This document shows, in pieces, positions 594 to 23,141 of a stretch of 42,698 bases of DNA (positions within the stretch are counted from its first letter, which is position 1; each line of letters begins with the position of its first letter). The notes under the pieces are model-generated. The model was given only the letters and a program-made list of their open reading frames with translations, was not told where the DNA came from and did no database searches. The stretch is from Methanomassiliicoccales archaeon. GTDB taxonomy: Archaea; Thermoplasmatota; Thermoplasmata; Methanomassiliicoccales; JACIVX01. Where the stretch lies: the NCBI GenBank assembly GCA_038850735.1, contig JAWCLO010000012.1, positions 1 through 42,698 of the forward strand. The letters run 5' to 3'. Position numbers and translations under genes: made by a program.

Positions 594-3500
594 CTATTTC
601 TTGTTTTGTTTTCCTCTTTTCTGTATGATAATAAATACAATGGCGACTGTGGCGATAATGATGATAACGCCAGTGATCAGTGGTATATGATCTGTATCTT
701 CTGCTCCTCCTTCAATAATAATTTCGGCATTCATCAGATTGGTCCAATTATTGGGATAGATGATCAGCGTTTCATAAGGTCCGATCTTGATTCCAGATTT
801 CCTGCAAGAGGGTAATGCATCTAAGGTTCCATTTATTTCATCCCAAATTAGGTGACATAATACGTTTGTCTGGAATTCCACATCAAACACAAAGCTATGA
901 GGTCCGTTGTTGCGAAAGACAAGGCAGTTGTAATCCGCCGTAACATTAATTACAGCTTCTGAATCACTAAAAATTGTTGCATTGAGAATCTTATAAACTC
1001 GTTCTTCGTGCTGGAAACGCTTTACCTGTGTTGCTGAATATTTCTTAAAATTATCTGAGGTCTCATACTTTATTATTCCCATGAAGGGGTTATTGTTTTC
1101 GTGCACGAGTTGAATGACGTCACTGCTTCCCTCTTCAACTTGAGCGTTCTCAATAGCATAAGCTGCACGAGCGTCGGAAAACATAGTCCAGTTATACGTA
1201 CCTCCTCCTTTTCCAATGACATGTGTTGTGTAGTTTCCCAGCGGAAGGTAGTATGAATTGTATTGCGATCCAACCAAATCTTCATAGAGAACAAACGGAG
1301 TTGCGTTCTCAATCTCTACAACCCAGGTTCCGTCGTCCCTCACCGAAACCTCATTGCCATCCTCATCGGTAACATATCCTGAGGCGCTTCCATAAATCAA
1401 ATTGAATACGCCATCAAGTGTCGTGGGAAGAGTTCTGTCTCCAAGAACTATGCTTGAAGGAAGAAACACCATACCCATTGGTCCACCCCACCATCCTTCT
1501 TCTGGTCCAATATAATAAGACCATTCCCAATAAAGGCCACTTCTATCGACCTCTATATATGGTGGATGATTCATTCGCTCATCGGAACTGTTGAGCTGAT
1601 TTCTTGCATTCCTTAACGTGGACCATTCCGGTTTATTGATATCATACACGTAAATTCGCGTATGAGTTGAATCAACATCAACAACTTCATAAGGCACAAC
1701 CGCGTGACCAGATGCACCTTCCGATAACAATATTATACCGAGATCTCCTGAATCAACGGCTACATTGATCGAGTAAAGTACTAGACCCAACCCAGAAAAA
1801 CCGTATATCGATGGAGCAAGGTTATCAAGATGCTGTGAAATGATATAATGAAGAGATTCAGCTGAAACTTGAACGCCGTGCATGTAATCTATTCGCTCGC
1901 GAAGCGCGCCGGAAAGGACGAAATCATCGATGTTGTAAACCCCAGGTTGCATTTCGCTTGTCTCGATGAGATCATGGTACAATTCAAGACTCACTGCGCT
2001 AAAGCCGACACATTCACCGTGCCTCGCCAAATAACAATATGCTGCTCCATAATACAAAGCAGCAAATGGATCGGGGCATATCGGTTCCTCAACAAGATAT
2101 CCCCAGCAATCCCAACCGTCCCAGGGTGTCCAGTAAGGAAGACCCAAACATATCCACAGATTGATATATACATCGTTACCAAATGTTCTACGGTAATCGC
2201 CATTCTCCCAAACAAGCCATGGGTATGATAGAAAGTATTTGTTTGTATTACTCATATTAAATCCATAATCAAGACAATACCAAGGCTTCGGATAAACATC
2301 GAACTCCTTTTCTGAGACGGCGGTACCCGCTCTCGTCGTGACCGTGATTCGCGAAGGAATTGTTGGGATTCCCGTAACTAATGTGAAGTTGAATTTATGG
2401 TCTGGGTCTGGGTTCAATGAGGTTGGCGCGGTCGGCACGGTGGCAGTTAGAACACCTCCGATTCGGACGGCACCCCCCATGAGATTTGATCCCGAAATCG
2501 ATACCTGCATTCCTTCCCAAGCTCCGCTCGGCGAGAAGCTAGTGATTGAAGGAGCCAATGGAGCGACCCTAACACTTGTGCACTTGATGTTACCTGAATA
2601 ATGATCCACAAGTATCTCCTTACCGTCGCTCACCGTCAGTCTAAATATCAGGATTACCTCGTAATCCAACACGTTTGGCGTAAATGTTGGTGAGTATGCA
2701 GTAGGATCAGAAAGTACTACACGAAAAGGTGTGGTGTCAATCTGCTCCCATAAATATTCTAGAGCATCCCCGTCGGGATCGTTACTATGCGATCCATCAA
2801 GGACAACCATATCTCCTTCGTTGACGGCTATCGAATCTGGAGCTACAGCCTCAGGTGGTCTATTCCAAACGGTTGTCGTAAATATATAGAAAGGATTTGC
2901 ACTCTGAGAGAATTCAATTGACGTGTCAATAAGAATCATTTCAATTTTAATCTTTGCTTCAAAAGTGTCTACCGATGGACTCGTCCATAAATAACTCCTG
3001 GCACCAGGGGTGAGGTCATCAATTTTATTCCATGTGCTTCCGTTATCAATGGATAGTAAAATGCGGAATTTGCATATTCCTCCGTAATAGCAGGTAGCAG
3101 TCCAAAGTACTTCATGAGTCTCACCACCTCTATACACAATCGCACCCGGTACGTAAGGATTGGGACTTATTAACCCCACAGAGGGCACATCCGAGTTTGC
3201 TACGATTCGAAAATCATCGTCACTTGTATCGTTCGCCAGGTGGGTAAATTCCATATAAAGAGCGATGACCTTGATTTTCACATGATCATACGAAGTCACA
3301 CCTGATGGTAACATTGGAACATTCCATTCGTAGACAAAATCATTCTCTGTTGAGGCTACAAGTATATGCCAAGTAGAGCCTCCATTTGTAGAGAATTCGA
3401 TGGAAATCGCAGTTAATACACCTATGGAATCTTCGGATGTAGCCCAGCGAATGTCGTAAATCTCACCCGCAATTAATGCTTCACCGCCGTTCGGCGAGAT

Positions 3501-4238
3501 CAACTGAATCCAGGGCGATCTTATTTCGAATTCGCTGCTCTCAGCATAGGCAAGCAGCACTCCTCCGGGCTCAGTCCAAGCATTAATTTTCAACTGACCG
3601 AAGGCATGCTCAAAATATCGAGGAGTGAACCAGCAACCACCCTGTGATGGATCGATGTTGCTGTACGCTATGCCTACTTCTGTCCAATCGCCCCATATTG
3701 ATCCTTGCCGATAGCGGGCCATTAAACTCAATGATTCCACTTTGCCAATACCATCGTAGAGATACCAGTGAATAGAATAGTACTGTGCGCTGCTCATCAC
3801 GGATGGCAATTCCGCGAATTCTAGCCACACGCCTGGCAAGATTGTGAAAAAGTCATCACTGATGTCCTCACCCAGCACGGTTGATGATGGATCAGACGAC
3901 CGCAATTCAACTCTAACAAGCAACTTTGAGGAATTGATATTGTTGGGAATTTCCCAGGCAAAGAGCTGGCTTCCCCCCGTGTTTGCCTTCTCACCTATAT
4001 AGTTCGGAAAGCTCAACCCCCCGTCCGTTGAGTAATAAATTCCCACCACACCCCCTGTTGATGCTGTTGAAAAAATGACCTTGCGAGTCTCTCCTCCCAT
4101 CCAATTCTCGCCACCATTTGGTGAGGCCAGCGTGATGGGAGGTTCAAGTGCAGCATCCGAAGATGATAACGGTATATTAATAGAAACAAGAAACACAACC
4201 AGACTTATTAGAATGGAATAACATTTGGCGCATGACAT
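594..4238 (-). CDS. Large membrane-anchored extracellular protein with Ig-like, PKD and TIG modules and a Cys/His/Asp papain-like domain
   Basis: 1214 aa. In order: signal peptide (1-29); three Ig-like repeats marked by SPNGGE or related motifs near 39, 248 and 358; a PKD-type module (about 460-550, with DGSHSNDPDGD); an IPT/TIG-type module (about 561-648); a domain with GECVGFS (Cys743), SGHAVVP (His845) and YVYD (Asp866); a C-terminal beta-rich domain (about 1040-1175); and one transmembrane helix (about 1184-1205) ending in a basic tail. The Cys, His, Asp order and spacing resemble papain-fold peptidases (C1/C39-like), but activity is inferred and no standard family was recognised. The same core occurs in the 966-aa protein at 6303-9203, transcribed divergently. 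The ATG at 4238 directly follows a GGGGGT run. Likely role: a cell-surface adhesin-peptidase. Confidence 0.85.
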   Translation of the reverse strand: MSCAKCYSILISLVVFLVSINIPLSSSDAALEPPITLASPNGGENWMGGETRKVIFSTASTGGVVGIYYSTDGGLSFPNYIGEKANTGGSQLFAWEIPNNINSSKLLVRVELRSSDPSSTVLGEDISDDFFTILPGVWLEFAELPSVMSSAQYYSIHWYLYDGIGKVESLSLMARYRQGSIWGDWTEVGIAYSNIDPSQGGCWFTPRYFEHAFGQLKINAWTEPGGVLLAYAESSEFEIRSPWIQLISPNGGEALIAGEIYDIRWATSEDSIGVLTAISIEFSTNGGSTWHILVASTENDFVYEWNVPMLPSGVTSYDHVKIKVIALYMEFTHLANDTSDDDFRIVANSDVPSVGLISPNPYVPGAIVYRGGETHEVLWTATCYYGGICKFRILLSIDNGSTWNKIDDLTPGARSYLWTSPSVDTFEAKIKIEMILIDTSIEFSQSANPFYIFTTTVWNRPPEAVAPDSIAVNEGDMVVLDGSHSNDPDGDALEYLWEQIDTTPFRVVLSDPTAYSPTFTPNVLDYEVILIFRLTVSDGKEILVDHYSGNIKCTSVRVAPLAPSITSFSPSGAWEGMQVSISGSNLMGGAVRIGGVLTATVPTAPTSLNPDPDHKFNFTLVTGIPTIPSRITVTTRAGTAVSEKEFDVYPKPWYCLDYGFNMSNTNKYFLSYPWLVWENGDYRRTFGNDVYINLWICLGLPYWTPWDGWDCWGYLVEEPICPDPFAALYYGAAYCYLARHGECVGFSAVSLELYHDLIETSEMQPGVYNIDDFVLSGALRERIDYMHGVQVSAESLHYIISQHLDNLAPSIYGFSGLGLVLYSINVAVDSGDLGIILLSEGASGHAVVPYEVVDVDSTHTRIYVYDINKPEWSTLRNARNQLNSSDERMNHPPYIEVDRSGLYWEWSYYIGPEEGWWGGPMGMVFLPSSIVLGDRTLPTTLDGVFNLIYGSASGYVTDEDGNEVSVRDDGTWVVEIENATPFVLYEDLVGSQYNSYYLPLGNYTTHVIGKGGGTYNWTMFSDARAAYAIENAQVEEGSSDVIQLVHENNNPFMGIIKYETSDNFKKYSATQVKRFQHEERVYKILNATIFSDSEAVINVTADYNCLVFRNNGPHSFVFDVEFQTNVLCHLIWDEINGTLDALPSCRKSGIKIGPYETLIIYPNNWTNLMNAEIIIEGGAEDTDHIPLITGVIIIIATVAIVFIIIQKRGKQNKK

Positions 4239-6302: not shown

Positions 6303-9203
6303 ATGCCCATTTTAACCTCAAAATTTCATCATTTTTCGAAAATGTGGACTTTTTTGATTTGCGATGCCATTATCATAAGCCTTTTTTGTTCCGGTATTGT
6401 TCTGAAACCTGCAAGTGGTGTTTCATATAGCGAAATAAAAATCTGGGCAGAATGGGACGACACTTATATTTTCGAGCTCCAAAAGGGTCAACATTACGAA
6501 ATGGAAGATTATCTGAAAGTAGGGAATTACACCGAGTTTGAGTTTCCAGGCAGGTACTGCTCTCTTATTCATTTTGATATCAGTGTATTACCAGCTGATT
6601 CCGAAATTCTATTTGCAAGTCTAAATCTATACAAACTTGATGGAATCGATGATGTAAAATTGTATTTGATTTCAGAATTCTGGGAGGGTGCGACGACAAC
6701 ATGGCAAAATCAACCTGACCTATATCTATCTGAACCATATACCCCACTGATTTGGGATATTGGTCATCTTACCGGGGCAATCGGCAAAAACATAACTTCA
6801 TGGGTTAGGGCCTGGTTTAATGAACAGGCTTCGATGAATGGTATTTACATCGAACCTTATCCATACAATATTGTGAGAGAAAGTGGCACTAGATTCTATA
6901 GTTATCAGGGAGCTTCCGTTACTGACGGCAATTATACACCGTATATTTACGTAAGATATAGATCCTCATCTCCTATACAGCAGCCTCCGCCTCCTCAACC
7001 TCCTCCTTGGAGAGATGATGTGACTCCCCCGCAGGTGTCGATTGAGGTGATTCCATCCGAGGATATCAGACCCACAGATACAGTCTCAGTAACAGTTTCT
7101 GCAATTGACGACATATGTCTGTACAGAGTTCAGTTGTTCATCCAAGGGGTAATGGAGGAAGAAATGCTGGTACCATATGAGGAGACCAATATCACCAACT
7201 TAGGAATTACATACGAGTCTGAGTTTTCGTATGGAGAAGTTTATTTAATGGCCGTTGCGATGGATAAAAGGACAAATACGCAGGCGACACAAAAGAACAT
7301 ATATATAGGCAGTCGAACACCACCGACCCTGCAGTTGTATGTTAATCTGGAGAGAGTATTTCCCAATGATGATTCTCAAATAGAGATTACAGTCATAGCG
7401 GACGATCCGGAGGGAATAGTATCAATCACTGTAGGCGCTGGTGCAGGTTATTATTCACCAGAACTTTATCCAGAATATGGTGAAATTCTTGAATTCACGG
7501 ATCCTTTTCCTACTCACGTTGCTCAGAAAATAATCGTAAGGAATTTGAATATCCCCTGGCCATCTGGAACACCGCTACCCGATGCAGTTAACACAAAGCT
7601 TATAAGATGCATGGCTTCCACAGTCGATGTGGAGCACTTGTCCAGCGATGTCGTAACTGAGGAAATTCAAGTGATCAGGCCTTACCAATGGGACTACGGT
7701 ATCCCCTACCACAATCCTGGAAATGAGCGGCTTGGATGGGAAAGAATGGTTGATGTTTTTGGCAGGGGAGAATTGAGGGGGCCCGGTGATCAAGATTGGT
7801 GGTGGACGATTCTTGCGCAACTCTGGAAGAAGGTCTTCGAACTCATGTGTGAACCTGGCGAGTGCTTTGGCATGTCTTCACTCAGCATATGGCATTATGA
7901 TCATCGGGTTCCAATACCAGACAATCTGACAGCACACACTGGTGATCAGCACTGGCCATATCGACCTGGTTACATCGACAACGAATATCAAAATTTGAGC
8001 AATTATGCGAGGAGATTTATTCAGGCACATCAGGGATCTCAAATTTCTCAGGAACTTCTAAGTCTTTATGCAGCTCAAATAAAAAAACAACTTCAGTCAG
8101 GAAACTTGCGTAGCTTCGTCAACAATGAACTGAGACAACTCGTTCGAGATGTTAAATACGGAACACCAGGGATACTATGCGTGGCAGAATATCGAGGGTT
8201 AGATGAGGGGATTATGGAATGCATAGGGGCTCATGCGGTTGTGCCCTGGTATGTAGAAGAGCATCCAGGCTGGTGGAAAATATACGTCTATGACTCCAAT
8301 AGGCCGTATGCCTCGGTCATTTTGGCAACAGATTACTATAATTATTCAAATTATCCTTATATTATCCTTGACGAAAATGGATTTTCATGGATCCACGAAG
8401 GTGGAGAGCTTTGGAATGATTTTATCTGGTATGTGCCATACTCCGTGACAAATCTTACGGATTATGATCTCATCGATGGTTGGCTTGTTGCGGGCACGAT
8501 TTTGACAAGTATCTTTGTCGGAGCGGTGGCAATCACTTTGACACATTTGTTACCAATACCCTTACCTATTCCAATGCAGGCTAATCCATATGGCGGGATT
8601 CAAGGAATGATTCTGCCCTCAGATAGGGTTATTGACCTAGTTGTTAATGATACAGGTCAGGCTGAATACACGTTTATAATGAATGCGGGTCGTTCTGTAT
8701 ATGGCATTTCCAACAAATCAATAGGACATGACAGAGGAGACAATATCAGAATCGATGTTGGCAGCAATCAGTACGGTTTGGGACTTAGGCTTAAGAGCGG
8801 GGTTCAGGACGAGGATTTTTCAATGGGTATTGGTCATCGTCTCGATCTTGTAGAAAGAGAATACATTCTTGAGAATATATCTATGCAAATGGAGGGGGAT
8901 ATTGAGATACTGGCCACGGAAAATTGCATGGGACTGTGTATCAGAAACTATGGAAATTCAGAGATATCTTGTAAGGTTATTCTCCGTAGCAGCGAATCAG
9001 AAACGGTTGGTGAGGAGGAATTGACGATTGCTCCCGGCGAGGAGATCATTGTCACAGGCGATTGGACATCGCTTGGCGATGGACTTTCCATTACGAGAGG
9101 AAAAATTACAACGGGAGAATTCCCCACCGTTTTAATCTTCATTGGGGCGGTCATTGCTGTAACGGCAGTAGCTCTATTAATCTTCATAAGGAGGCGCAAA
9201 TGA
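6303..9203 (+). CDS. Membrane-anchored extracellular protein with DNRLRE-like and Ig-like domains and a Cys/His/Asp papain-like domain
   Basis: 966 aa. In order: signal peptide (about 1-40); a DNRLRE/disaggregatase-repeat-like domain (about 43-218, with SLIHFDIS, WQNQP and YIYVRY); a proline-rich linker (about 224-236); two Ig-like domains (about 243-335 and 340-457); a domain with GECFGMS (Cys521), GAHAVVPW (His644) and YVYDSNRP (Asp664); a hydrophobic stretch (about 727-757); a C-terminal domain alignable with that of the 1214-aa paralogue; and a transmembrane helix (about 942-962) with a basic tail. The conserved Cys/His/Asp suggest a papain-like peptidase; this is inference. The ATG at 6303 has no close Shine-Dalgarno: the G-run lies about 17 bases upstream, so the start is less certain. 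The next gene overlaps by ATGA. Confidence 0.85.
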   Translation: MPILTSKFHHFSKMWTFLICDAIIISLFCSGIVLKPASGVSYSEIKIWAEWDDTYIFELQKGQHYEMEDYLKVGNYTEFEFPGRYCSLIHFDISVLPADSEILFASLNLYKLDGIDDVKLYLISEFWEGATTTWQNQPDLYLSEPYTPLIWDIGHLTGAIGKNITSWVRAWFNEQASMNGIYIEPYPYNIVRESGTRFYSYQGASVTDGNYTPYIYVRYRSSSPIQQPPPPQPPPWRDDVTPPQVSIEVIPSEDIRPTDTVSVTVSAIDDICLYRVQLFIQGVMEEEMLVPYEETNITNLGITYESEFSYGEVYLMAVAMDKRTNTQATQKNIYIGSRTPPTLQLYVNLERVFPNDDSQIEITVIADDPEGIVSITVGAGAGYYSPELYPEYGEILEFTDPFPTHVAQKIIVRNLNIPWPSGTPLPDAVNTKLIRCMASTVDVEHLSSDVVTEEIQVIRPYQWDYGIPYHNPGNERLGWERMVDVFGRGELRGPGDQDWWWTILAQLWKKVFELMCEPGECFGMSSLSIWHYDHRVPIPDNLTAHTGDQHWPYRPGYIDNEYQNLSNYARRFIQAHQGSQISQELLSLYAAQIKKQLQSGNLRSFVNNELRQLVRDVKYGTPGILCVAEYRGLDEGIMECIGAHAVVPWYVEEHPGWWKIYVYDSNRPYASVILATDYYNYSNYPYIILDENGFSWIHEGGELWNDFIWYVPYSVTNLTDYDLIDGWLVAGTILTSIFVGAVAITLTHLLPIPLPIPMQANPYGGIQGMILPSDRVIDLVVNDTGQAEYTFIMNAGRSVYGISNKSIGHDRGDNIRIDVGSNQYGLGLRLKSGVQDEDFSMGIGHRLDLVEREYILENISMQMEGDIEILATENCMGLCIRNYGNSEISCKVILRSSESETVGEEELTIAPGEEIIVTGDWTSLGDGLSITRGKITTGEFPTVLIFIGAVIAVTAVALLIFIRRRK
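9188..9194 (+). promoter_or_regulatory. Strong ribosome binding site fixing the start of the 9200 gene
   Basis: AAGGAGG five bases before the ATG at 9200, inside the last codons of the upstream gene. It rules out a longer frame that would start at 9062 and selects a start followed by a clean signal peptide. The pair is therefore translationally coupled. Confidence 0.8.
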
Positions 9204-13877: not shown

Positions 13878-13894
13878 TTTCAAAAAAATTGAAA
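13878..13894. promoter_or_regulatory. Palindromic operator candidate between the DUF6951-like and Fe-S protein genes
   Basis: TTTCAA-AAAAA-TTGAAA, a perfect 6-base inverted repeat with a 5-base A-only centre. It is 29 bases before the start of the minus-strand gene, where transcription would begin, and about 90 bases before the plus-strand gene. The same half-sites recur at 16339-16389, 20867-20884 and 21219-21235. Confidence 0.6.
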
Positions 13895-13983
13895 TATCCT
13901 ACCATTACTTAATTCTATTGTAACTGCCAAAATAGTAACGCCGTTTCGGCAAATTATGCTGTAATGGCCGGTGATGATGTTAT

Positions 13984-14532
13984 ATGACGATTCAAAATTG
14001 GATGCTCGAAGAGAGGCTTCCCTGCATTGCTGACGGTAGAAAGATAAGAGTCAGATATCGACTTGAAGGAAATATATGCGTACTTTTGCCATACCTCGCG
14101 AGTGATAAACCAAATTCTAGTTTTGATGAGGATGCTGGTGTGCTTTCCTACAAATATGGACAAAGAGTAATTTCAATTGATAGGTATGGCCGTGTCGGAA
14201 TCACTCAATTGACTGACCTAGAAGAGGCCGAATCAGTCATTAAGGAGATAGCCGCTTGGATTAATGATGTTGAGAGAAGGAAGGATAAGATCGATCCACT
14301 GGGTTACAAGAAAAGGAAACGAGTGACAGTAGTTGATATTCTTAGATTGATGCCAAGGACAAATTGTGGAAAATGCAGGTACCCAACATGTTTAGCTTTC
14401 GTCGTTGACCTTTTAGAAGATAAGGTGCGACTTGAATCGTGCGAGGTCCTCAAAGATCGTAAATACATTGATGCCAGAAAAAGCGTTGCGAAGTTGCTCC
14501 TTGATGCCGGCTTGGATGGTGAGTCTAAATGA
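13984..14532 (+). CDS. Fe-S protein with C-terminal 4Fe-4S domain (PF04060-like)
   Basis: 182 aa. The C-terminal part has the four-cysteine pattern CGKC-x4-C-x16-C (Cys128, 131, 136, 153) of the PF04060 4Fe-4S domain found in corrinoid Fe-S proteins and some reductases. The N-terminal 100 residues contain LPCIADGRKIRVR and a YGQRVISIDRYGRVGI segment typical of an archaeal (Fe-S)-binding protein group of unknown role. The cluster suggests electron transfer or sensing; partners are unknown. It starts with ATG at 13984, and its TGA overlaps the ATG of the next gene, so the two are coupled. It is divergent from the DUF6951-like gene, with a shared palindrome. Confidence 0.75.
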   Translation: MTIQNWMLEERLPCIADGRKIRVRYRLEGNICVLLPYLASDKPNSSFDEDAGVLSYKYGQRVISIDRYGRVGITQLTDLEEAESVIKEIAAWINDVERRKDKIDPLGYKKRKRVTVVDILRLMPRTNCGKCRYPTCLAFVVDLLEDKVRLESCEVLKDRKYIDARKSVAKLLLDAGLDGESK

Positions 14533-14837
14533 CTACTAGTAAATTCGTTTTAAGAAAGCTCTGCTCTGGGATTGAAGAATATGAAGCGACGCCACATGAA
14601 CCCATGAAAATAGATTTGGCGGCCCTCGAATCGCGTATAAAAGAAAGAGGGATTGGAGAGACTTCACTCTCACCGGTTTTCTTGCTTCTGCTTATGGAGA
14701 AAAATGGAGCAGTCTGTCACATATACTCAAATGGGAAAATCCTCATCAAAGCAAACTTGAGAGAAGAAGCATTAGAGGCTTGCGAATTAATCTACAATGT
14801 TGCTGAAGGCTACATGAACTGTCAAATAGATACCTGA
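14529..14837 (+). CDS. Small protein coupled to the Fe-S protein
   Basis: 102 aa. It overlaps the upstream Fe-S gene by ATGA. It contains CHIYSNGKILIKANLREEAL, followed by a helix. This beta-beta-helix pattern resembles the YGQRVISIDRYGRVGI plus EEAESVIKEI segment in its neighbour, so the two may share a fold and pair with each other. No catalytic motif is seen. Function unknown; probably an accessory subunit of the Fe-S protein. Confidence 0.7.
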   Translation: MTTSKFVLRKLCSGIEEYEATPHEPMKIDLAALESRIKERGIGETSLSPVFLLLLMEKNGAVCHIYSNGKILIKANLREEALEACELIYNVAEGYMNCQIDT

Positions 14838-15011
14838 TGCCAAGTTCTAGCTATAAGAAAAGCCAGGATTGCACTTGCCCACTCACCCAATAGATCGCTG
14901 TGCACGAGGCGATTGAAACGGCGATGAGTTTGACGAAATATCTCAAGCATCCAATTAACACCTTGAGGTACGTTACCAATTCAGTATTATCCTCTTGGGC
15001 TGAGCTTTTAT

Positions 15012-15947
15012 CTACGATCTATCAATTTGATATTCTTTTAGTTTCCCCATAGCTTTTCTTAATCCAATCAGACCATTGACAACGGATTGCACACGCACCC
15101 AGGGAATGCCAACATACATTTCGTTATCTCTCAGTTTCCCTGCGTATCTACATCCATAACATCCAAGCGAAAAATTGACATTTCCCGTTTTTATAGGTAT
15201 TGTTGTTGAGTCACCACAGCATGCTTGCATACCGGCAAAGTTTGCGACAATTCGGGGACCACCACTATCGTAAATAAGCGCGTTGGCAATCCACATGGCC
15301 TGTTTCGGGAGGCACGTTAAGATAACAACATCCGGTGGTCTATCATAGCTCTGTAATGGCCCCACCAATGTTCCAACAGCGCTACCAATATCTAACTTCG
15401 GAACTTCTGCCATAATCCTCGCAGCAGCTTCTACAGATGCTGCGAGACCATGCATATAGGGTACCTTTCCGGATTTGACTTTCTCAGGAAGGTCAGATAT
15501 GCCAAAGGCAGCTCGTGCTGCCACGCAAGCATGAGCATCAGCAGGAAGATAGAGAGAAGCCCCTAGGGATGCCATATGGACAGACACGCAATGACGCAAA
15601 GGCATTTCAGCCTTCTTAAAGTGTTGAGGTATTGAATCCGCTGGCTTTAGCAATTTTACACCAACGGGAGCTTTTCGCAGATCTAGCAATCCCACAAAAC
15701 TCTTCGATATTGCAAAGAGTTCCTTGTTGTTAAATTCTTCAGAATTGGTCAGTTCCACAGCGGGTTTGGATGGGATGGTAATTGCATGCACAGGGCATTG
15801 ATCTTCGCAGATGCCGCATAAGGAACATTGATCGGCATTCATTAGATGCGGCATATCCTCCCCTAATTCGATTGCATTATTGGGGCATATGTCGGCACAT
15901 ATTCCGCAGAGAGTACATTTGTCTGGATCAAACAATAATTTTGTCAT
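15012..15947 (-). CDS. Ferredoxin-DUF169 fusion protein
   Basis: 311 aa from the ATG at 15947. Two [4Fe-4S] motifs come first (CTLCGICADIC at 11-21, CSLCGICEDQC at 41-51), then a DUF169 (COG2043) domain with PVGVKLL, HACVAARAAFG and a late cysteine-rich stretch (QACCGD, LGCYGCR). DUF169 proteins are of unknown function and often occur near Fe-S or metal proteins; the added ferredoxin head suggests redox delivery to that domain. A TTG at 15971 is in frame but less likely. It overlaps the upstream DGC-domain gene by 20 bases and is clearly co-transcribed. The stop is TAG. Confidence 0.8.
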   Translation of the reverse strand: MTKLLFDPDKCTLCGICADICPNNAIELGEDMPHLMNADQCSLCGICEDQCPVHAITIPSKPAVELTNSEEFNNKELFAISKSFVGLLDLRKAPVGVKLLKPADSIPQHFKKAEMPLRHCVSVHMASLGASLYLPADAHACVAARAAFGISDLPEKVKSGKVPYMHGLAASVEAAARIMAEVPKLDIGSAVGTLVGPLQSYDRPPDVVILTCLPKQAMWIANALIYDSGGPRIVANFAGMQACCGDSTTIPIKTGNVNFSLGCYGCRYAGKLRDNEMYVGIPWVRVQSVVNGLIGLRKAMGKLKEYQIDRS

Positions 15948-16335
15948 ACCATCGCCTTTCAATTTCCTCAATTACTCTTCTCTTTATTCTCTCAACTTCT
16001 TTCTTATTGAAATCCGGCGTCATGTTCTTTTTAATTCCGCAGTCTTTTGTTAGTTCGATCGATACATCAGGTGATCGTTCTCTTTTTTGCAATATTTCCG
16101 AAGCGCATTTCATCGAGCATCCATCTAAAACAACTACAAAATCAGCGCTCTTCAAATTTTCAAGTGCCGTTTTTCTTCTAAGACCGAGCGCAGGTAAGCA
16201 GAGGAGTTGATAATCATCCAGGTGCTCAAGAACAAGTTCTCTAACTGCATGATCAGACATCGTGCCCGTATTCGATGCACCACTGCAGCTTATGAGTAAA
16301 ATCTTCTTATGGGCTTTTTTTAGAGTTTCTTGCAT
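15928..16335 (-). CDS. DGC-domain putative zinc-binding protein
   Basis: 135 aa. LLISCSGASNTGTMSDHAV near the N-terminus and VVLDGCSMKCASEIL in the middle (the Asp-Gly-Cys that names the DGC family) identify a putative zinc-binding protein. The C-terminus is a charged helix. A paralogue lies at 18848-19267. It is the first gene of a two-gene operon with the ferredoxin-DUF169 fusion. The ATG at 16335 lies about 27 bases from a TTTAAATA box, so the mRNA is probably leaderless. Operator-like half-sites flank that box. Function unknown; metal or sulfur handling is inferred from residues and neighbours. Confidence 0.8.
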   Translation of the reverse strand: MQETLKKAHKKILLISCSGASNTGTMSDHAVRELVLEHLDDYQLLCLPALGLRRKTALENLKSADFVVVLDGCSMKCASEILQKRERSPDVSIELTKDCGIKKNMTPDFNKKEVERIKRRVIEEIERRWYDKIIV

Positions 16336-16338
16336 GGT

Positions 16339-16389
16339 ATTTCAAAATGTTTTGGAGGTATTTAAAAGTATTTAAAATTATTTTGAAAT
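16339..16389 (-). promoter_or_regulatory. TATA boxes flanked by widely spaced operator half-sites upstream of the DGC-DUF169 operon
   Basis: Two TTTAAATA boxes (16359-16366 and 16369-16376, minus strand) lie 27 and 37 bases from the start codon. They are bracketed by a perfect 10-base inverted repeat, ATTTCAAAAT (16339-16348) and ATTTTGAAAT (16380-16389). The arms contain the TTTCAA/TTGAAA half-sites seen at three other promoters, but 31 bases apart instead of 5-6. That layout fits a looped or cooperative repressor, or a degenerate variant. Confidence 0.5.
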
Positions 16390-17028
16390 GACCTTATCAA
16401 TCTTCATCAAAAAAACAACGAGGGCGACCATAGCAGCATGAGAAATTACAAGAATATTTAGATCGGATCCTGATTTTTGATTCAATCTTCAAACTAGGCA
16501 TTCGAATCGCTAGTTTCGTTTCGAAAAATTCGGTTTCACACTACAAGAAAGATGGAAGCCGGTATCAAGACATGAGATTATATGCAACGAGTGAATGAAA
16601 CTGCACATGCTTTACTGTAAATTAAATCTCTATTTCCAATACGTGTTTTGATATATTTGGAATTACGAGACAAATCGTACGTGAAATCAATGCTCAGAAA
16701 ATGATCGGTTTTTAATCATTGCAGATTGATCACAATGCTGAAGAATGGAGTGAGTAGTCACAGATGAATATTGAAGAACGATTTCTGGGTGCTTATGATT
16801 CACCAATTCCATCTAATTAAATCAACAAAGCCATATATTTGAGATGTATTGAAGGAAAAATTCTTAATAGCTAATTCTTAGAACTTGTAGACACGTGTAA
16901 ACCAATGAATGATGTTCGTTTCTACTAAAACTTATGTATTAATCGAAATCGACCTATTAGCGAAAACTTATACACTATCATCGTGGAAAAAAATGATGAA
17001 TAAAGTCATTACAAAAGAGGGACTAACC
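16390..17028. other. Intergenic leader of the cysteine desulfurase gene; no other gene seen
   Basis: No gene supported. A 40-codon in-frame extension of the cysteine desulfurase from 16909 is open but unlike the family and lacks a Shine-Dalgarno. GAGG at 17017-17020, eight bases before the ATG at 17029, supports the shorter start. No operator palindrome like those of the neighbours was found here. Confidence 0.45.
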
Positions 17029-18186
17029 ATGATCAAAAGGGTTTACTTCGACAACAGTGCAACGACTAGAATGGATGATAGGGTACTAGAGGCAATGTTT
17101 CCATTTTTTTGCGAAAAGTTCGGAAACCCCTCAAGTTTGCATTCTTACGGTAGAGATGCGGATGATGCGATTGAGGAAGCTAGAGAGATCATCAGTGAGT
17201 CACTAGGAGCCACGTCGAGGGAGATAGTATTCACATCAAGTGGCACTGAATCGGACAATCTCGCAATAAAAGGGGTGGCTTTTGCTAATCGAAAACAAGG
17301 AAATCATATCATCACGAGTTCAATTGAACATCATGCCGTGCTACATACATGTCAGTACTTGGAATCGTGTGGGTTCAGAATAACATATCTTCCAGTTGGC
17401 AATAATGGGTTAGTCTGTGAAGAGCACCTGAAAGAAGCAATTGATCGTGAGACGATTCTTGTTTCAATAATGGCAGCTAATAATGAAATTGGCACTATTC
17501 AGAAAATTAGAGCTTTTGGAGAAATAGCGCACGACTATGGTGCGCTTTTTCATACAGATGCAGTTCAAGCTTTCCTGAAGATTCCATTAAACGTCCAAAG
17601 GGATGAATTTGACCTCCTTTCGATCTCTTCACACAAGATTCATGGTCCGAAGGGGGTAGGAGCGCTCATGGTCAAGAAGGGTGTGAAAATAGAGCCACTA
17701 CTTCATGGAGGAGGCCATGAAAGGGGTTTGCGTTCATCCACTGAAAACGTAAGCGGCATTGTTGGGTTTGGTAAAGCCGTAGAAATAGGACTAGAAAGCA
17801 TGAGCGCTGATGTAGAAAAAATGAAATCAATGAGAGAACGCATTATAGAAGGGGTTCTTTCTGAAGTCAGCGGCTCACATCTGAACGGTCACAGGTACAA
17901 GAGATTGTGCAATAATGTCAATCTGAGATTTGATTTCACTGAGGGTGAAGCACTAGTATTAGAACTGGATGCGAAAGGGATTGCGACCTCAACAGGATCA
18001 GCGTGTTCTACAAGAGATCCTCGCCCTTCACATGTACTCATCGCGTGCGGATTGAGACCTGAAGAAGCAAGATCTTCTCTTAGAGTAAGTCTAAGTAGGA
18101 TGAATACCCACGACGAAGTTGATTACTTCCTTGAAGTCATGCCAGAAGTTGTTGAAAAAGTGCGTATGGTTTCACACGCAAAATAG
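17029..18186 (+). CDS. nifS: Cysteine desulfurase (NifS/IscS family)
   Basis: 385 aa, normal for the class I NifS/IscS family. It has VYFDNSATT at the start, the PLP lysine in SSHKIHGPKG (Lys203), the SIEHHAV and HTDAVQ cofactor-binding segments, and the catalytic cysteine in STGSACST (Cys326). It takes sulfur from cysteine as a persulfide for Fe-S clusters and tRNA thiolation. No IscU-like scaffold is adjacent. The THUMP-less ThiI-like enzyme at 25050 could be one acceptor, which is inference. The ATG at 17029 was chosen from the GAGG spacing and the family N-terminus. Confidence 0.92.
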   Translation: MIKRVYFDNSATTRMDDRVLEAMFPFFCEKFGNPSSLHSYGRDADDAIEEAREIISESLGATSREIVFTSSGTESDNLAIKGVAFANRKQGNHIITSSIEHHAVLHTCQYLESCGFRITYLPVGNNGLVCEEHLKEAIDRETILVSIMAANNEIGTIQKIRAFGEIAHDYGALFHTDAVQAFLKIPLNVQRDEFDLLSISSHKIHGPKGVGALMVKKGVKIEPLLHGGGHERGLRSSTENVSGIVGFGKAVEIGLESMSADVEKMKSMRERIIEGVLSEVSGSHLNGHRYKRLCNNVNLRFDFTEGEALVLELDAKGIATSTGSACSTRDPRPSHVLIACGLRPEEARSSLRVSLSRMNTHDEVDYFLEVMPEVVEKVRMVSHAK

Positions 18187-18847
18187 CTTTTCTGAAAATA
18201 TGAACAAATAAAAATATAGCTGCTTCGAAAAGCTTCTCTTGTAATTTTTAGAATAGAGAAATAGAATACTGCAATTAATTATTTATGGTACTGTGACTGT
18301 TGTTTCTCGATTGCCTGCGCCATACGGACATAAAACAATGAGGTCACACAAAAGAATGAATTAAACGAATGTTGTATAGGGGAGCACATGAACCTGTTTT
18401 CTTTGCATCATGGAAAAGCATGTAAAGATATGATTATCGCTTCTGAAAAGAAGAGTTCTCATGGCAATTCATATAGAAAAATCAAGATAAAAACAACTTC
18501 CCAGTGCTAGAATTTATAGGATAATTAGATTTTGAACGTCCATTTCCTCCATAGAAGACTTAATAAAGTCAAGGGCAAGTGATTGATAGATAAAAACCCC
18601 CTGTTTCAGAAATTCATTTCTCACGACTGTCAAGTAGCCACATGTGAGTGCGCAATGAGAATCCAAGGCAGGGAAAGGATCATTCGTTGGGCAATAGAAC
18701 CAAAAAATTTCCGTTAAGGCTAAAAACGATCGCACTCGTACTATAAGAGTGATTTTTCTTATAGGAAGAATTCGATCTTAGACTTCCCGCTGCTTGCCCG
18801 CGATATTTCTAACACTATTATTTCTAGATTAGGATTAATATGTAGAA
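18187..18847. other. Intergenic, no gene supported
   Basis: This AT-rich interval lies between the desulfurase gene and the end of the minus-strand permease operon. A 73-codon minus-strand frame at 18514-18735 begins with GTG, has no Shine-Dalgarno and no recognisable family; it was left out. A small repeat of the sequence around GCTTCGAAAAGCTT near 18220-18235, just after the desulfurase stop, might be a weak hairpin. Confidence 0.35.
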
Positions 18848-19267
18848 TCACTCAGTGTTCCGGGATATTGAAATTGCTCTTGATGGCATTGGAAGCAGAC
18901 TAATAACATGTTTTGAAACATGTTCAATATCCTTCTCTACAAAGGCGTTTAGATCGTATGATTTCTTTATCCCAAGATCCGTAATCACTACATGTTTCGT
19001 TGGCACTAACCCATGATGCTCAAAGGATTTCTTCCCACACGCTAATTGACACCCATCAACAACAATAGTGAATTCTGCATTTTCTGCGGATTTTACTATT
19101 CCACTCACGTGCCCTCCAATGCCAGCAATGCATGCCATTCGGGCCTTTCCCTCGGTCGCTAATCTTTTGGCCACCTCGTTCGCAATCTGTCCGACATTCG
19201 ACCCGCCTGAACAAGGATAAATAAGGACTGCACCACCACAGAGACACGCACCCTTATCTTGAGACAT
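18848..19267 (-). CDS. DGC-domain putative zinc-binding protein (second copy)
   Basis: 139 aa. YPCSGGSNVGQIANEVAKRL and VVDGCQLACGKKSF give the DGC signature. An N-terminal CLCGG adds two cysteines not present in the paralogue at 15928-16335. It is the last gene of a four-gene operon: ArsP-like permease, 86-aa protein, redox-active disulfide protein, then this. The context suggests a role in metal or metalloid binding or delivery; no enzymatic role is known. Spacing to the preceding gene is 13 bases. Confidence 0.82.
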   Translation of the reverse strand: MSQDKGACLCGGAVLIYPCSGGSNVGQIANEVAKRLATEGKARMACIAGIGGHVSGIVKSAENAEFTIVVDGCQLACGKKSFEHHGLVPTKHVVITDLGIKKSYDLNAFVEKDIEHVSKHVISLLPMPSRAISISRNTE

Positions 19268-19280
19268 TTATTACCCCCTT

Positions 19281-19520
19281 TCATAATGCTGACTTAATCA
19301 TTGATTTGATTTCATCCAACGAAGGCACCCTACCGACAGCCCTTGCTTCGCCATTAATATAAAGTGCGGGGGTCATCATAATACCCCTTTCTGTAATTTC
19401 GTTCAAATCTTCCACCTTTACCACCTCCGCTACAACTCCCAGCTCTTCAACTGCTTGAAGAACCAATCTCTCTAACCTCTTGCATTTCATGCATCCCATT
19501 CCCAGTACCTCTATCTTCAC
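19281..19520 (-). CDS. Small redox-active disulfide protein (thioredoxin-like fold)
   Basis: 79 aa. C-x-x-C in GMGCMKCKRLE (Cys10, Cys13), then a MTPALYINGE cis-proline loop, match the redox-active disulfide protein 2 family (TIGR00412-like). It is typically found beside ArsP-type permeases, as here. It probably reduces or hands over a thiol-bound ion in the cytosol; the substrate is unknown. It sits in the permease operon, four bases after the 86-aa gene. Confidence 0.88.
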   Translation of the reverse strand: MKIEVLGMGCMKCKRLERLVLQAVEELGVVAEVVKVEDLNEITERGIMMTPALYINGEARAVGRVPSLDEIKSMIKSAL

Positions 19521-19524
19521 AAAA

Positions 19525-19785
19525 TCACCTCCTCTCCCTTTTCTTGAAATATTCCTTCAATAGCGCAGCTTCGTACTCCTTTTCAGCATCAGATGGCACA
19601 TAGTTATAGATTCTCACTCGCTTCAGTAGTTCCTTTCTGAGAGCGTTTTCCTCTTCGATGCCTAACTTCACAACTTGATCTATGACTTCGTCGAGTTGGC
19701 TGATGCCTATCAAGCAACCGCCGATGTCAATCTTTCTCACATTTCTCGCAGATGATTCGGGACAACATGTTCTTTTCTCTGCCAT
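19525..19785 (-). CDS. Small hypothetical protein in the permease operon
   Basis: 86 aa. A CC pair at residues 7-8 and a single Cys in GGCLIGIS precede a long helix and a very basic tail (KKRERR). No family is recognised with confidence. Its fixed place between the permease and the disulfide protein, with gaps of three and four bases, suggests an accessory subunit or metallochaperone for the transporter. Confidence 0.75.
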   Translation of the reverse strand: MAEKRTCCPESSARNVRKIDIGGCLIGISQLDEVIDQVVKLGIEEENALRKELLKRVRIYNYVPSDAEKEYEAALLKEYFKKRERR

Positions 19786-19788
19786 ACT

Positions 19789-20856
19789 TTATCCCACTAT
19801 CATTCCATAGATGAAACCTGCAAGTGCAGACAAGATTACAACAGTAAACCAATATATCGTGGTTTTTTTCGCACCCATGATCCTATACAAAACTGCAATA
19901 GATGGAAGACTAGTTGTTGGACCGCTCAATAAGAGGCTCAATGCTGGACCAGCAGCCATGACACCGCTTGAATAGCCAAAAGTGGTCCCAATGATAGGCA
20001 CTTCAAGAAGCGTTGGCATATAGAGAATTGCACCTATGAATGATGCTAATAGATTTGAAGATATGGAATTGTTGCCGAGATATGGCCTGAACATCTCTGG
20101 TGGTAGGAAATATGCAATTATACCAACAATAAAAGTCCCTGCGATAAGAATCGGAAAAATCTTCTTTGTCAAATCCCACGTTTCATAAGCCCAATTGGTG
20201 ACTTCATCTCGTTCGAAGTAGTATATCAGAAGTGCGGCGATAACAACCGTCAGTAAATAAACTGTCGCGAGTTTTAACACCCAATCAATTTTGGATGCAG
20301 CAATGATCAAAATCAATATGAGAATGACAAAGAACATCGCGGACGCCCATCTTGGTCTAGAATTTGCCGAGGACGCCGGCAAAAATTCCTTCTTTTCTTG
20401 TATTAGAGAGACATCGTGACGCTTAAAAATTGTCGCCATTATTAACCCAACGATTATGGACAGGGCAACAGCACTTGCAGCCCTTGCAAACCCCAGATCA
20501 TATCCGAGAACTTGGGCGGTGTAAACGATTGCAAGGATATTAATGCCAGGTCCAGCGAATAGAAATGTAATCGCCGGCCCTATGCCACTTCCTTTTCTAT
20601 ATATTCCTGCAAACAAGGGCAGAATGGTACAGCTACAAACCGCCAAAACAGCTCCGGAAACTGATGCTACTGAGTATGACTTGTATCTTTTTACGGTAGG
20701 ACCAAAATATCTCAATATGGCATCTTTTTTTACAAATGCAGCAATTGCGCCAGCAATAAAAAATGCTGGAATAAGACAAGTAAGGGTGTGCTCGGAAAGA
20801 TAGTTCATCACGTTGCTTAAACCAGCGATAAGCGCATCAACCAATGGATTCGCCAT
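19789..20856 (-). CDS. ArsP/UPF0718-type permease
   Basis: 355 aa with about eight to ten transmembrane helices. Two half-repeats are visible: the first with VCSCTILPLFAGIYRKGSG (Cys74, Cys76) followed by LFAGPGINILAI, the second with MPTLLEVPIIG and LLSGPTTSLPS. This is the DUF318/COG0701 permease family, which includes ArsP (organoarsenical efflux) and metal exporters. The substrate is likely a thiol-reactive metal or metalloid, given the CSC motif and the divergent ACR3 gene. It is the first gene of a four-gene operon. The ATG at 20856 lies 10 bases from a TTTCAA-N6-TTGAAA palindrome. Confidence 0.88.
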   Translation of the reverse strand: MANPLVDALIAGLSNVMNYLSEHTLTCLIPAFFIAGAIAAFVKKDAILRYFGPTVKRYKSYSVASVSGAVLAVCSCTILPLFAGIYRKGSGIGPAITFLFAGPGINILAIVYTAQVLGYDLGFARAASAVALSIIVGLIMATIFKRHDVSLIQEKKEFLPASSANSRPRWASAMFFVILILILIIAASKIDWVLKLATVYLLTVVIAALLIYYFERDEVTNWAYETWDLTKKIFPILIAGTFIVGIIAYFLPPEMFRPYLGNNSISSNLLASFIGAILYMPTLLEVPIIGTTFGYSSGVMAAGPALSLLLSGPTTSLPSIAVLYRIMGAKKTTIYWFTVVILSALAGFIYGMIVG

Positions 20857-20866
20857 GATCTTACCA

Positions 20867-20884
20867 TTTCAACTTTTTTTGAAA
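20867..20884. promoter_or_regulatory. Operator candidate of the permease operon
   Basis: TTTCAA-CTTTTT-TTGAAA, a perfect 6-base inverted repeat 10 bases before the permease ATG. A TATA-like TTAATAAA on the minus strand near 20897-20905 would place the transcription start inside the palindrome, a position suited to repression. Confidence 0.6.
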
Positions 20885-21199
20885 GTATCCACGTTGTTTA
20901 TTAATGTTTCGCCGAATGACGTGCCTACGACCGAATCAATTGCAGAATCATCTGCGAGAACTTGATCTACATTTACTCTTTGAGTTACCAGACGGATTGT
21001 ACTAATTACGAGCCAGTCGCGATTATCAATCCTTCAAGCGAATTTTGCAGTAAATAATGTAAGAAGCAGCATTCCGCCGTTCAAACTATTGCATTATTCA
21101 ATCTGATCAAATTAAACAACAAGCGCATTTGGAACCCATTATGCTTTTTTGCATAACAATCGATCCCATCAATAATAAGATCGTCCTTTCTGCAAAGCA

Positions 21200-21207
21200 T
21201 TTAAATA
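21200..21207 (+). promoter_or_regulatory. TATA box of the ACR3 gene
   Basis: TTTAAATA on the plus strand. The expected transcription start, about 27 bases on, falls inside the palindrome at 21218-21242, giving a leader of about 60 bases before the ATG at 21295. Confidence 0.55.
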
Positions 21208-21217
21208 GTGTAAATGA

Positions 21218-21242
21218 TTTTCAATTTTTTTGAAATTGAAAA
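21218..21242. promoter_or_regulatory. Operator candidate of the ACR3 gene
   Basis: A 10-base perfect inverted repeat, TTTTCAATTT and AAATTGAAAA, with a 5-base spacer. It contains the same TTTCAA-N5-TTGAAA core (21219-21235) as the site at 13878 and nearly the same as the site at 20867. It overlaps the predicted transcription start. Confidence 0.65.
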
Positions 21243-21294
21243 AGAATTGATATAACCGTTCATTGAACGAATGAAGGAACTAGGTGGAAAAATT

Positions 21295-22383
21295 ATGCCA
21301 GAACAGATTTCAAAGAAGCTTTCATTTCTGGACAGGTTCCTAACATTATGGATATTTTTAGCGATGTTCATTGGTGTAGCTTTGGGAGCAATATTTCCTG
21401 CTGTAGCCGATGTTCTCAATTCGATGAGTATAGGCACGACTTCAATTCCAATCGCAATTGGTCTGATCCTAATGATGTATCCACCACTTGCAAAAGTTAA
21501 GTACGAAGAATTATCAAAGTTGACCAAAATGCCAGAATCTAAATTAATGTTCGGAACCTCTATTGCACTGAATTACTTGGTCGGGCCTTTCTTGATGTTC
21601 ACGCTTGCTTGGATATTCCTTCCAGATCTGCCTGAATACAGAATTGGATTAATTTTAACAGGTTTAGCTCGATGTATTGCCATGGTTCTTGTATGGAATC
21701 AGCTGGCTGAGGGGGATTCAGAGTACGCTGCAATACTTGTGGCCATCAATTCAATTTTCCAGATCATCATGTACTCTTTCTATGCTTACTTCATGATATT
21801 CGTGCTTTCGGAATTTATAGCACCAGGATCTGGAGTTGCAGTTAATATATCGATTTGGGAAGTTGCGCAGTCCGTTCTCATTTATTTAGGGATTCCTTTT
21901 CTTGCAGGGATCATTACACGTTATGCGCTGCTTCCGAGAAAAGGGGCCGAATGGTATGACAAGAAATTCATACCCAAGCTCGGTAAAGTTTCCCTGCTTG
22001 CGCTTCTTTTCACAATAGTGGTTATGTTCTCACTAAAGGGAGAATACATAATTCAGCTCCCGCTCGATGTAATGAGAATTGCAATTCCACTAATCCTCTA
22101 CTTCACAATAATGTTCTTACTTTCGTTCCGACTGTCCATCAAACTCAAATTCGACTATCCACATGCAACTGCTCAGAGTTTCACTGCTGCCAGCAACAAT
22201 TTTGAACTTGCAATTGCTGTTGCCATTGCAATCTTTGGAATTGGATCTGGCGTAGCCTTTGCTACTGTAATAGGTCCTCTTGTTGAGGTACCTGTACTAA
22301 TAAGTCTAGTAAATGTTGCATTTTGGATAAGAAAGAGGTATTATGACTCAAATGGAAAAGTTAAGGTAACTTCCCCAGCATGA
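21295..22383 (+). CDS. acr3: ACR3 family arsenite efflux permease
   Basis: 362 aa from the ATG at 21295, with ten predicted transmembrane helices. ACR3 hallmarks are [14 protein letters not shown] at the start, [18 protein letters not shown] with the conserved cysteine (Cys127), and [18 protein letters not shown] near the end. It exports As(III), and in some members Sb(III), driven by the proton gradient. An in-frame ATG at 21271 exists, but GGTGG seven bases before 21295 and the family N-terminus favour the shorter form. No ArsR or ArsC is visible. It is divergent from the ArsP-like permease operon, and both promoters share a palindrome. Confidence 0.92.
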
Positions 22384-22694: not shown

Positions 22695-23141
22695 GTGGTG
22701 GTCATTGACGAGATGAATCGCAAGATAATCAAGCTTCTTGCGACTGACGGAAAGATTACCTATAATGAAATTGCGTCGAGGATGCGCAGATCGCCATCAA
22801 CGATCAGAGACAGGATAAAGAGACTTGAAGATAATTCGATTATATTGGGATATGCAGCTATAGTAAATTGCGAACAAATGGGAATGAATACCGATGCTGT
22901 AGTGTTCGCAAATGCAGGAAAGAATGTGACGAGTCAGGATCTTGCAAGACTAAAGAATGTTCCCGGCGTAACAGAAGTGCTGTTTGTAAGCGGTGAGAGG
23001 ACTATCATGATTCGGTTGCATGCCCAGGATAATAAAACACTAAATGAGATATTAACCAAACACATCGCTCCGCTAGGTCTATTCGACATTGAAGTTCAGA
23101 TCGTCCTGGAATCAGTTATGAGATTTCCAGGTATCTGGTAG
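22695..23141 (+). CDS. Lrp/AsnC family transcriptional regulator
   Basis: 148 aa. An N-terminal helix-turn-helix (about 1-55, with EIASRMRRSPSTIRDRIKRL) and a C-terminal RAM domain (about 65-140) give the standard Lrp/AsnC layout. Members form dimers and octamers and bind palindromes with AT-rich centres, often responding to amino acids. The start is GTG at 22695, eight bases after GGGAGG; GTG at 22698 is also possible. It lies downstream of acr3 on the same strand with its own TATA box. It is a candidate reader of the TTTCAA-N5-TTGAAA sites in this window, which is inference. Confidence 0.88.
   Translation: MVVIDEMNRKIIKLLATDGKITYNEIASRMRRSPSTIRDRIKRLEDNSIILGYAAIVNCEQMGMNTDAVVFANAGKNVTSQDLARLKNVPGVTEVLFVSGERTIMIRLHAQDNKTLNEILTKHIAPLGLFDIEVQIVLESVMRFPGIW

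Follow-up and report, generated by a model that had tools for sequence, protein, structure and literature searches.

In this work we analysed a window of 42,698 nucleotides, contig JAWCLO010000012.1 (C12) of a Methanomassiliicoccales archaeon (GCA_038850735.1, here G000; 1.66 Mb, 24 contigs, 98% complete), where copies of the palindrome TTTCAA-N(5-6)-TTGAAA preceded the arsenic transporter genes acr3 and arsP and a divergent pair of DUF6951 and iron-sulfur (Fe-S) protein genes. We propose that these palindromes were operators of an arsenite-sensing ArsR/SmtB repressor that was encoded outside the window and acted in trans, and we put the probability of this reading at about 0.83. A reading of the DNA made from the sequence alone had suggested one regulator with an arsenite-like signal for these promoters; the comparative evidence gave both a name, pointing to an ArsR/SmtB-family protein as the probable binder and to arsenic as the probable signal.

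Palindromic sites and their conservation

The sequence-only reading had listed four palindromes at four promoters. Three of them were exact and lay at the positions it gave (Table 1), where 0.04 matches were expected and none of 100 shuffles reached three. Its claim that the window held no other paired copy also held in a scan for the exact pattern. For the intergenic DNA (22 pieces, 9,532 bases, 62% AT, according to gene calls made in this analysis), 2,000 dinucleotide shuffles gave a mean of 0.011 sites and none reached the three that were observed. The genes behind the sites had Pfam and NCBIfam family matches and comprised the DUF6951 and Fe-S genes, the DGC1-ferredoxin/DUF169 operon, the ArsP_1 operon, and acr3.

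The fourth palindrome, a widely spaced pair in front of the DGC1 operon, had to be abandoned in that form. Its arms ATTTCAAAAT (16339) and ATTTTGAAAT (16380) were present, but they did not make up one wide palindrome. Two imperfect compact sites of 18 bp fitted better, each arm being the outer, intact half of one site and TTTTAAATA the segment that separated the two. The proximal site aligned with a perfect TTTCAA-N6-TTGAAA in two relatives (G003 and G002).

We compared the promoters with those of five members of the same family (G001-G005). G003 had a counterpart of the 13878 site at the matching position, likewise with an N5 spacer (L023:18770). The arsP site was represented by TTCAA-N6-TTGAA at the matching position in G003 and G002, and the acr3 site by TTTCTA-N6-TTGAAA in the same two genomes and by ATTCCA-N6-TTGAAA in G001. 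Thus, G003 had sites at the DUF6951/Fe-S pair, DGC1 (N6), arsP and acr3, and G002 had them at DGC1, arsP and acr3. In G001, the acr3, thioredoxin and DGC genes were direct neighbours in the same orientation, and the site preceding acr3 was degenerate. Further exact sites of G003 and G002 (L268, L269, L270 and L273) were intragenic or at gene edges, next to genes unlinked to arsenic in our query set, and were set aside.

Genome-wide, the exact N5/N6 pattern occurred six times in G000 and its reversed control not at all. Three of the six sites were the window promoters. The others lay about 180 bp upstream of arsM (C11:2222), 24 bp beyond the stop of a gene (C2:100805) and within an open reading frame (ORF; C8:2596). 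With one of six exact sites intragenic, the comparison of promoters with coding regions that the sequence-only reading had proposed did not refute it. The sites at C2:100805 and C8:2596 probably arose by chance. Membership of arsM in the G000 regulon was not supported, given the distance of its site from the start and a spacer with only four A/T of six. The arsM gene itself was found in four of the five family members searched, and in one locus (L081) arsM and acr3 were divergently oriented and two sites lay at or between them. At the NifS gene of the window (17029-18186) there was no site with up to two mismatches.

The proposed ArsR repressor and competing explanations

A search of G000 with PF01022 gave 10 matches in nine proteins (two matches in one ORF). 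One of the nine was a classic ArsR with the metal box PLCVCLIKEL, a protein of 122 aa encoded at G000:C4:47716-48081. Its winged-helix helix-turn-helix (HTH) domain scored 46.5 bits to PF01022 (cut-off 22) and 71.9 bits to NF033788 (cut-off 55), and orthologues were present in four of the five family members. Judging from the sequence comparisons, this protein was very probably the binder of the palindromes. The CxC pair was kept in all 34 aligned ArsR homologues, a set that included the ArsR proteins of G002-G005 and the unlinked one of G000, and linked and unlinked homologues alike (34/34) had the HTH segment SKLSYH(L/I), once as SRLSYHL.

The palindrome was specifically linked to ArsR homologues across the class. 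Such homologues (E<=1e-10) were found in 45 of 150 class genomes, and we analysed 30 loci out of the 47 matches listed (95,139 bases). These contained 25 exact TTTCAA-N6-TTGAAA sites in 17 loci, and every other spacing from 0 to 12 gave none; the reversed control gave zero at N6 and three at N9. The sites were mainly located in arsR-arsP and acr3 promoters and also before thioredoxin genes. When the same 150 genomes were scored for both features, the exact N6 motif was present in 34/45 genomes with ArsR and in 26/105 without it (Fisher p 7.7e-9). Within the order, the corresponding numbers were 7/9 and 1/12 (p 0.002).

Since the motif was also found in genomes without ArsR, a lone exact match proved little. 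We therefore looked at the context of 70 exact N6 sites in 60 fetched regions, which came from the matches listed and represented part of the class. Sites from -20 to 220 bp upstream of an ars-type gene made up 32 of 56 in ArsR-containing genomes (29 of 52 without L263-L266, which were picked for their ArsR hit) and none of 14 in genomes lacking ArsR. The spacer was 0.87 AT at the 32 ars-linked sites and 0.61-0.66 at the remaining ones. It is likely that context and an AT-rich spacer together separate genuine sites from others. The motif was not general, since the acr3 loci of the best 80 of 483 relatives (genome contigs, mostly bacterial) held only five exact N6 sites in 774,025 bases. Three of these five fell in two Methanomassiliicoccales loci, and the palindrome seems to be mostly restricted to this archaeal class.

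According to the proposed mechanism, an ArsR dimer would sit on TTTCAA-N(5-6)-TTGAAA near the gene start, probably covering the position where transcription begins, and would block initiation at acr3, at arsP-P86-arsE-DGC2 (P86 being an 86-aa protein and arsE the thioredoxin gene), at DGC1-ferredoxin/DUF169 and at the divergent DUF6951 and Fe-S genes. The repressor would come off the DNA once As(III), or perhaps Sb(III), occupied the CxC pair, as expected from the family. Export by Acr3 and ArsP and thiol/disulfide handling by the ArsE-type thioredoxin would then follow, and the DUF6951, DGC and ferredoxin proteins might protect or rebuild Fe-S or thiol centres. In archaea, transcription begins some 25 bp beyond the TATA box, and ArsR at these sites would therefore cover the start and block initiation. 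In the case of acr3, a TATA-like box began 19 bp before the operator. With neighbouring operator copies masked, 12 of 42 sites near gene starts had a TATA-like 8-mer (at least 7/8) in the 50 bp before them, in 11 cases at 14-30 bp and with a median distance of 18.5 bp over the 12; base-shuffled stretches gave 5.5 matches on average and 3/500 reached 12. Since the masked count was only 12 of 42, occlusion of the start site was only moderately supported.

Several observations weighed against the ArsR reading. The arsR gene of G000 had no site (N5 or N6, up to three mismatches) in the 400 bp upstream, and no other gene of the query set occurred in the 15 kb fetched around it; autoregulation of arsR is common but not universal. 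The N5 spacer was present at two of the three exact window sites (13878 and 21219), with N6 only at 20867, and it was never seen in the 30 ArsR loci. A one-base loss may be tolerated in the A/T run, or these two may be weaker sites. Exact sites were absent from 13 of the 30 ArsR loci. The 105 genomes without ArsR held 49 forward sites and seven reversed ones, showing that the reversed control set too low a background. Among the relatives, G004 and G005 had ArsR but no exact site, and G001 (73% complete) had no ArsR match and kept only the degenerate acr3 site. The site at arsM was not conserved, being absent at up to two mismatches from the arsM genes of four relatives. The TATA count rose to 21/42 without masking and was then inflated by neighbouring operator copies. 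Finally, relaxed scans were unspecific (33 versus 6 matches with one mismatch, 63 versus 17 for the relaxed 5+5 pattern), and they were too noisy to add any regulon members.

Among the alternatives, the best surviving one kept the same ArsR-family repressor and changed its signal to another ion (Zn, Cd or Cu) or to redox state. ArsR/SmtB proteins sense many metals, and the ArsP-type permease had additional sub-threshold matches to SaoE and a Cu/Zn efflux family. However, acr3 was an arsenite exporter at the equivalog level, and in another class genome (G111) acr3 and an arsC-like phosphatase gene stood in one row behind a site, with an ArsR-ArsM fusion in the same region, so that we consider a signal other than arsenite unlikely. 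The sequence-only reading had left the choice between arsenite and thiol stress. Arsenite was retained, and thiol stress became less favoured because arsP, acr3 and a thioredoxin of the ArsE family belonged to the regulon, as did the arsC-like gene in a relative.

We also considered as binder an Lrp/AsnC-type regulator whose gene directly follows acr3 (22695-23141). In archaea, Lrp-type regulators often bind palindromes that are AT-rich in the middle, and the AT-rich centre of the palindromes described here would fit this. The lrp gene was a direct neighbour of acr3 both in the window and in G003; in G001 the two genes were about 2.6 kb apart. Nevertheless, an Lrp homologue (E<=1e-4) was found in none of the 60 motif-holding class regions, where ArsR was found in 19 (four of the 60 had been chosen for their ArsR hit), and the window lrp had no site upstream at up to three mismatches. 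The Lrp orthologue of G003 had no cysteine, which made thiol-based sensing of arsenite unlikely, and Lrp was thus a very improbable binder. The least probable explanation, chance AT-rich inverted repeats or start-site architecture with no specific regulator, drew on the AT-rich promoters and on relaxed motif versions that were common genome-wide, but the intergenic shuffles, the single spacing in ArsR loci and the conservation at the same genes in relatives made it hardly credible.

DUF6951 and the other genes behind the sites

The ArsR-operator reading would bring DUF6951, a family with three strictly kept cysteines, under arsenic control. DUF6951 gave 71 matches in 21 of the 150 class genomes, which were all 21 sampled members of the order. 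Four matches were in ars clusters (the window, L239, L246 and L250). Around the other 67, we found five stretches with a one-mismatch N6 site, one of them directly upstream (L297), and no exact site. A purely arsenic role for the family was rejected since most paralogues had no site nearby. In the tree, the window protein belonged to the half, 38 rows in all, that also contained the ars-linked members.

Across 61 sequences, the only invariant columns were C12, C36 and C75. The predicted model (pLDDT 97.1) gave Z scores of 6.0-7.5, all below 8, over 79-101 aligned residues for its best 32 aligner rows; these were entries of the IscU, SufU or NifU type or complexes for Fe-S assembly, except for one titled hypothetical protein (1su0). 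The best Foldseek E for the model was 0.017. A sequence comparison with IscU/NifU gave no match at E<=1 among the best 25 of 35 Pfam families, and the DUF6951 profile matched no PDB chain at E<=10. IscU likewise uses three cysteines. We take an IscU-like function of DUF6951 as a lead suggested by the model, and membership in the IscU/NifU family is not claimed. The IscU-like model and the three invariant cysteines made this function directly testable. More tentatively, the regulon could have its own arm for Fe-S and thiol repair, where the ArsR-controlled subset of DUF6951 would act as an IscU-like scaffold or a three-cysteine arsenite chaperone and, together with DGC, ferredoxin-DUF169 and the Fe-S proteins, would rebuild or shield As(III)-attacked Fe-S centres in these Fe-S-rich methanogens; we consider this possible but doubtful.

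Other genomes of the class showed related gene orders, and DUF6951, DGC and ferredoxin-DUF169 genes were again met behind the site. A perfect site preceded a ferredoxin-DUF169 gene in G130 (L248), 53% identical to that of the window, and in G050 the DGC and ferredoxin-DUF169 genes followed acr3 on the same strand. The row in G043 consisted of arsR (divergent), a site, acr3, a CMD gene, a second site, arsP, thioredoxin, DGC and DUF6951. Behind the acr3 site of G111, the order was acr3, an Fe-S/CdhD-like protein, the arsC-like phosphatase, DUF6951, thioredoxin and CMD. DGC genes had ArsP, Trx, ACR3 or ArsR matches nearby at 9 of 19 loci, and the DGC model gave no convincing fold in PDB.

Table 1. 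Predicted operators and genes of the proposed arsenic regulon in G000 (window positions unless a locus is given)
Feature	Position	Strand	Remarks
DUF6951 protein, 109 aa	13520..13849	-	Pfam PF22263 E=3.2e-19
Operator (predicted), TTTCAA-N5-TTGAAA	13878..13894	.	between divergent DUF6951 and Fe-S genes
Protein with C-terminal Fe-S motif	13984..14532	+	PF04060
102-aa protein resembling half a TBP domain	14529..14837	+	after Fe-S gene; PF00352 E=1.6e-4, just below cut-off
Ferredoxin-DUF169 fusion	15012..15947	-	PF02596, Fer4; start taken at ATG 15947
DGC protein 1	15928..16335	-	PF08859 E=4.1e-24
Start-proximal imperfect operator (predicted), cTcCAA-N6-TTGAAA	16340..16357	-	DGC1 operon; 2 mismatches
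Distal imperfect operator (predicted), TTTCAA-N6-TTtAAA	16371..16388	-	DGC1 operon; 1 mismatch
DGC protein 2	18848..19267	-	PF08859 E=1.5e-34
MTH895/ArsE-family thioredoxin-like protein	19281..19520	-	PF13192; TIGR00412 96.3 bits, cut-off 62
86-aa protein (P86)	19525..19785	-	between arsP and thioredoxin gene; no Pfam or NCBIfam family
ArsP_1 permease	19789..20856	-	PF03773 E=7.2e-72
Operator (predicted), TTTCAA-N6-TTGAAA	20867..20884	-	11 bp before arsP
TATA-like box of acr3 (TTTAAATA)	21200..21207	+	begins 19 bp before acr3 operator
Operator (predicted), TTTCAA-N5-TTGAAA	21219..21235	+	36 bp before acr3
ACR3 arsenite efflux transporter	21271..22383	+	equivalog TIGR00832 434 bits, cut-off 282.8
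arsM (arsenite methyltransferase)	L003:459-1322 (G000:C11)		found in this genome

Relation to known arsenic systems and further observations

ArsR regulons are well known, and the new element was one operator word across much of an archaeal class. It put DUF6951, DGC and DUF169-ferredoxin, families without known function, under likely arsenic control, and it could serve in searches for arsenic genes in further genomes of the class. No published account of the operator, or of DUF6951 in arsenic operons, appeared among the matches listed in a literature search, where subscription journals were mostly not covered.

The closest parallel was TtSmtB of Thermus thermophilus, described in PMC5658604 with a palindrome overlapping basal promoter elements and with dispersed ars genes. 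Both systems combined a palindrome at the promoter, an ArsR/SmtB repressor (here a proposed one) and ars genes scattered in the chromosome. They differed in that the promoters here were of the archaeal TATA type and the gene set included DUF6951, DGC and ferredoxin-DUF169. Similarly, PMC12607644 reported for ArsR and AseR of Bacillus subtilis a dimer on an inverted repeat that is released by As(III), a release that would also apply here; however, the AseR repeat TATATAACGATTTGCTTATATA differed in sequence, and the Bacillus ars repeat lay just upstream of -35 (PMC12607644).

For Methanomassiliicoccales, PMC7824343 described ars genes with acr3 replacing arsB, a complete arsRDABC operon in two metagenome-assembled genomes and no arsM in the members compared. 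Unlike those genomes, G000 had an unlinked arsR, an arsM gene and a predicted shared operator. The same thioredoxin-like family, as redox-active disulfide protein 2, was part of the ars operons in PMC2963123. The redox trio there consisted of CcdA, thioredoxin and disulfide protein 2, and DGC was absent from the main text of that paper.

Some additional features were observed in these loci. The Fe-S/CdhD-like protein of G111 (L239:8534-9202) combined an Fe-S motif with a CdhD-like part and showed a weak, sub-threshold similarity to HgcA, the corrinoid protein of mercury methylation. An ArsR-ArsM fusion gene followed arsP in the same region (L239:5774-6853). Other genomes contained weak relatives of the 86-aa protein of the window, located close to arsP, thioredoxin or acr3 genes. 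Finally, two long ORFs of the window, 594-4238 (1214 aa) and 6303-9203 (966 aa), ended at the C-terminus in a hydrophobic stretch and then a basic tail and, by eye, look like exported surface proteins.

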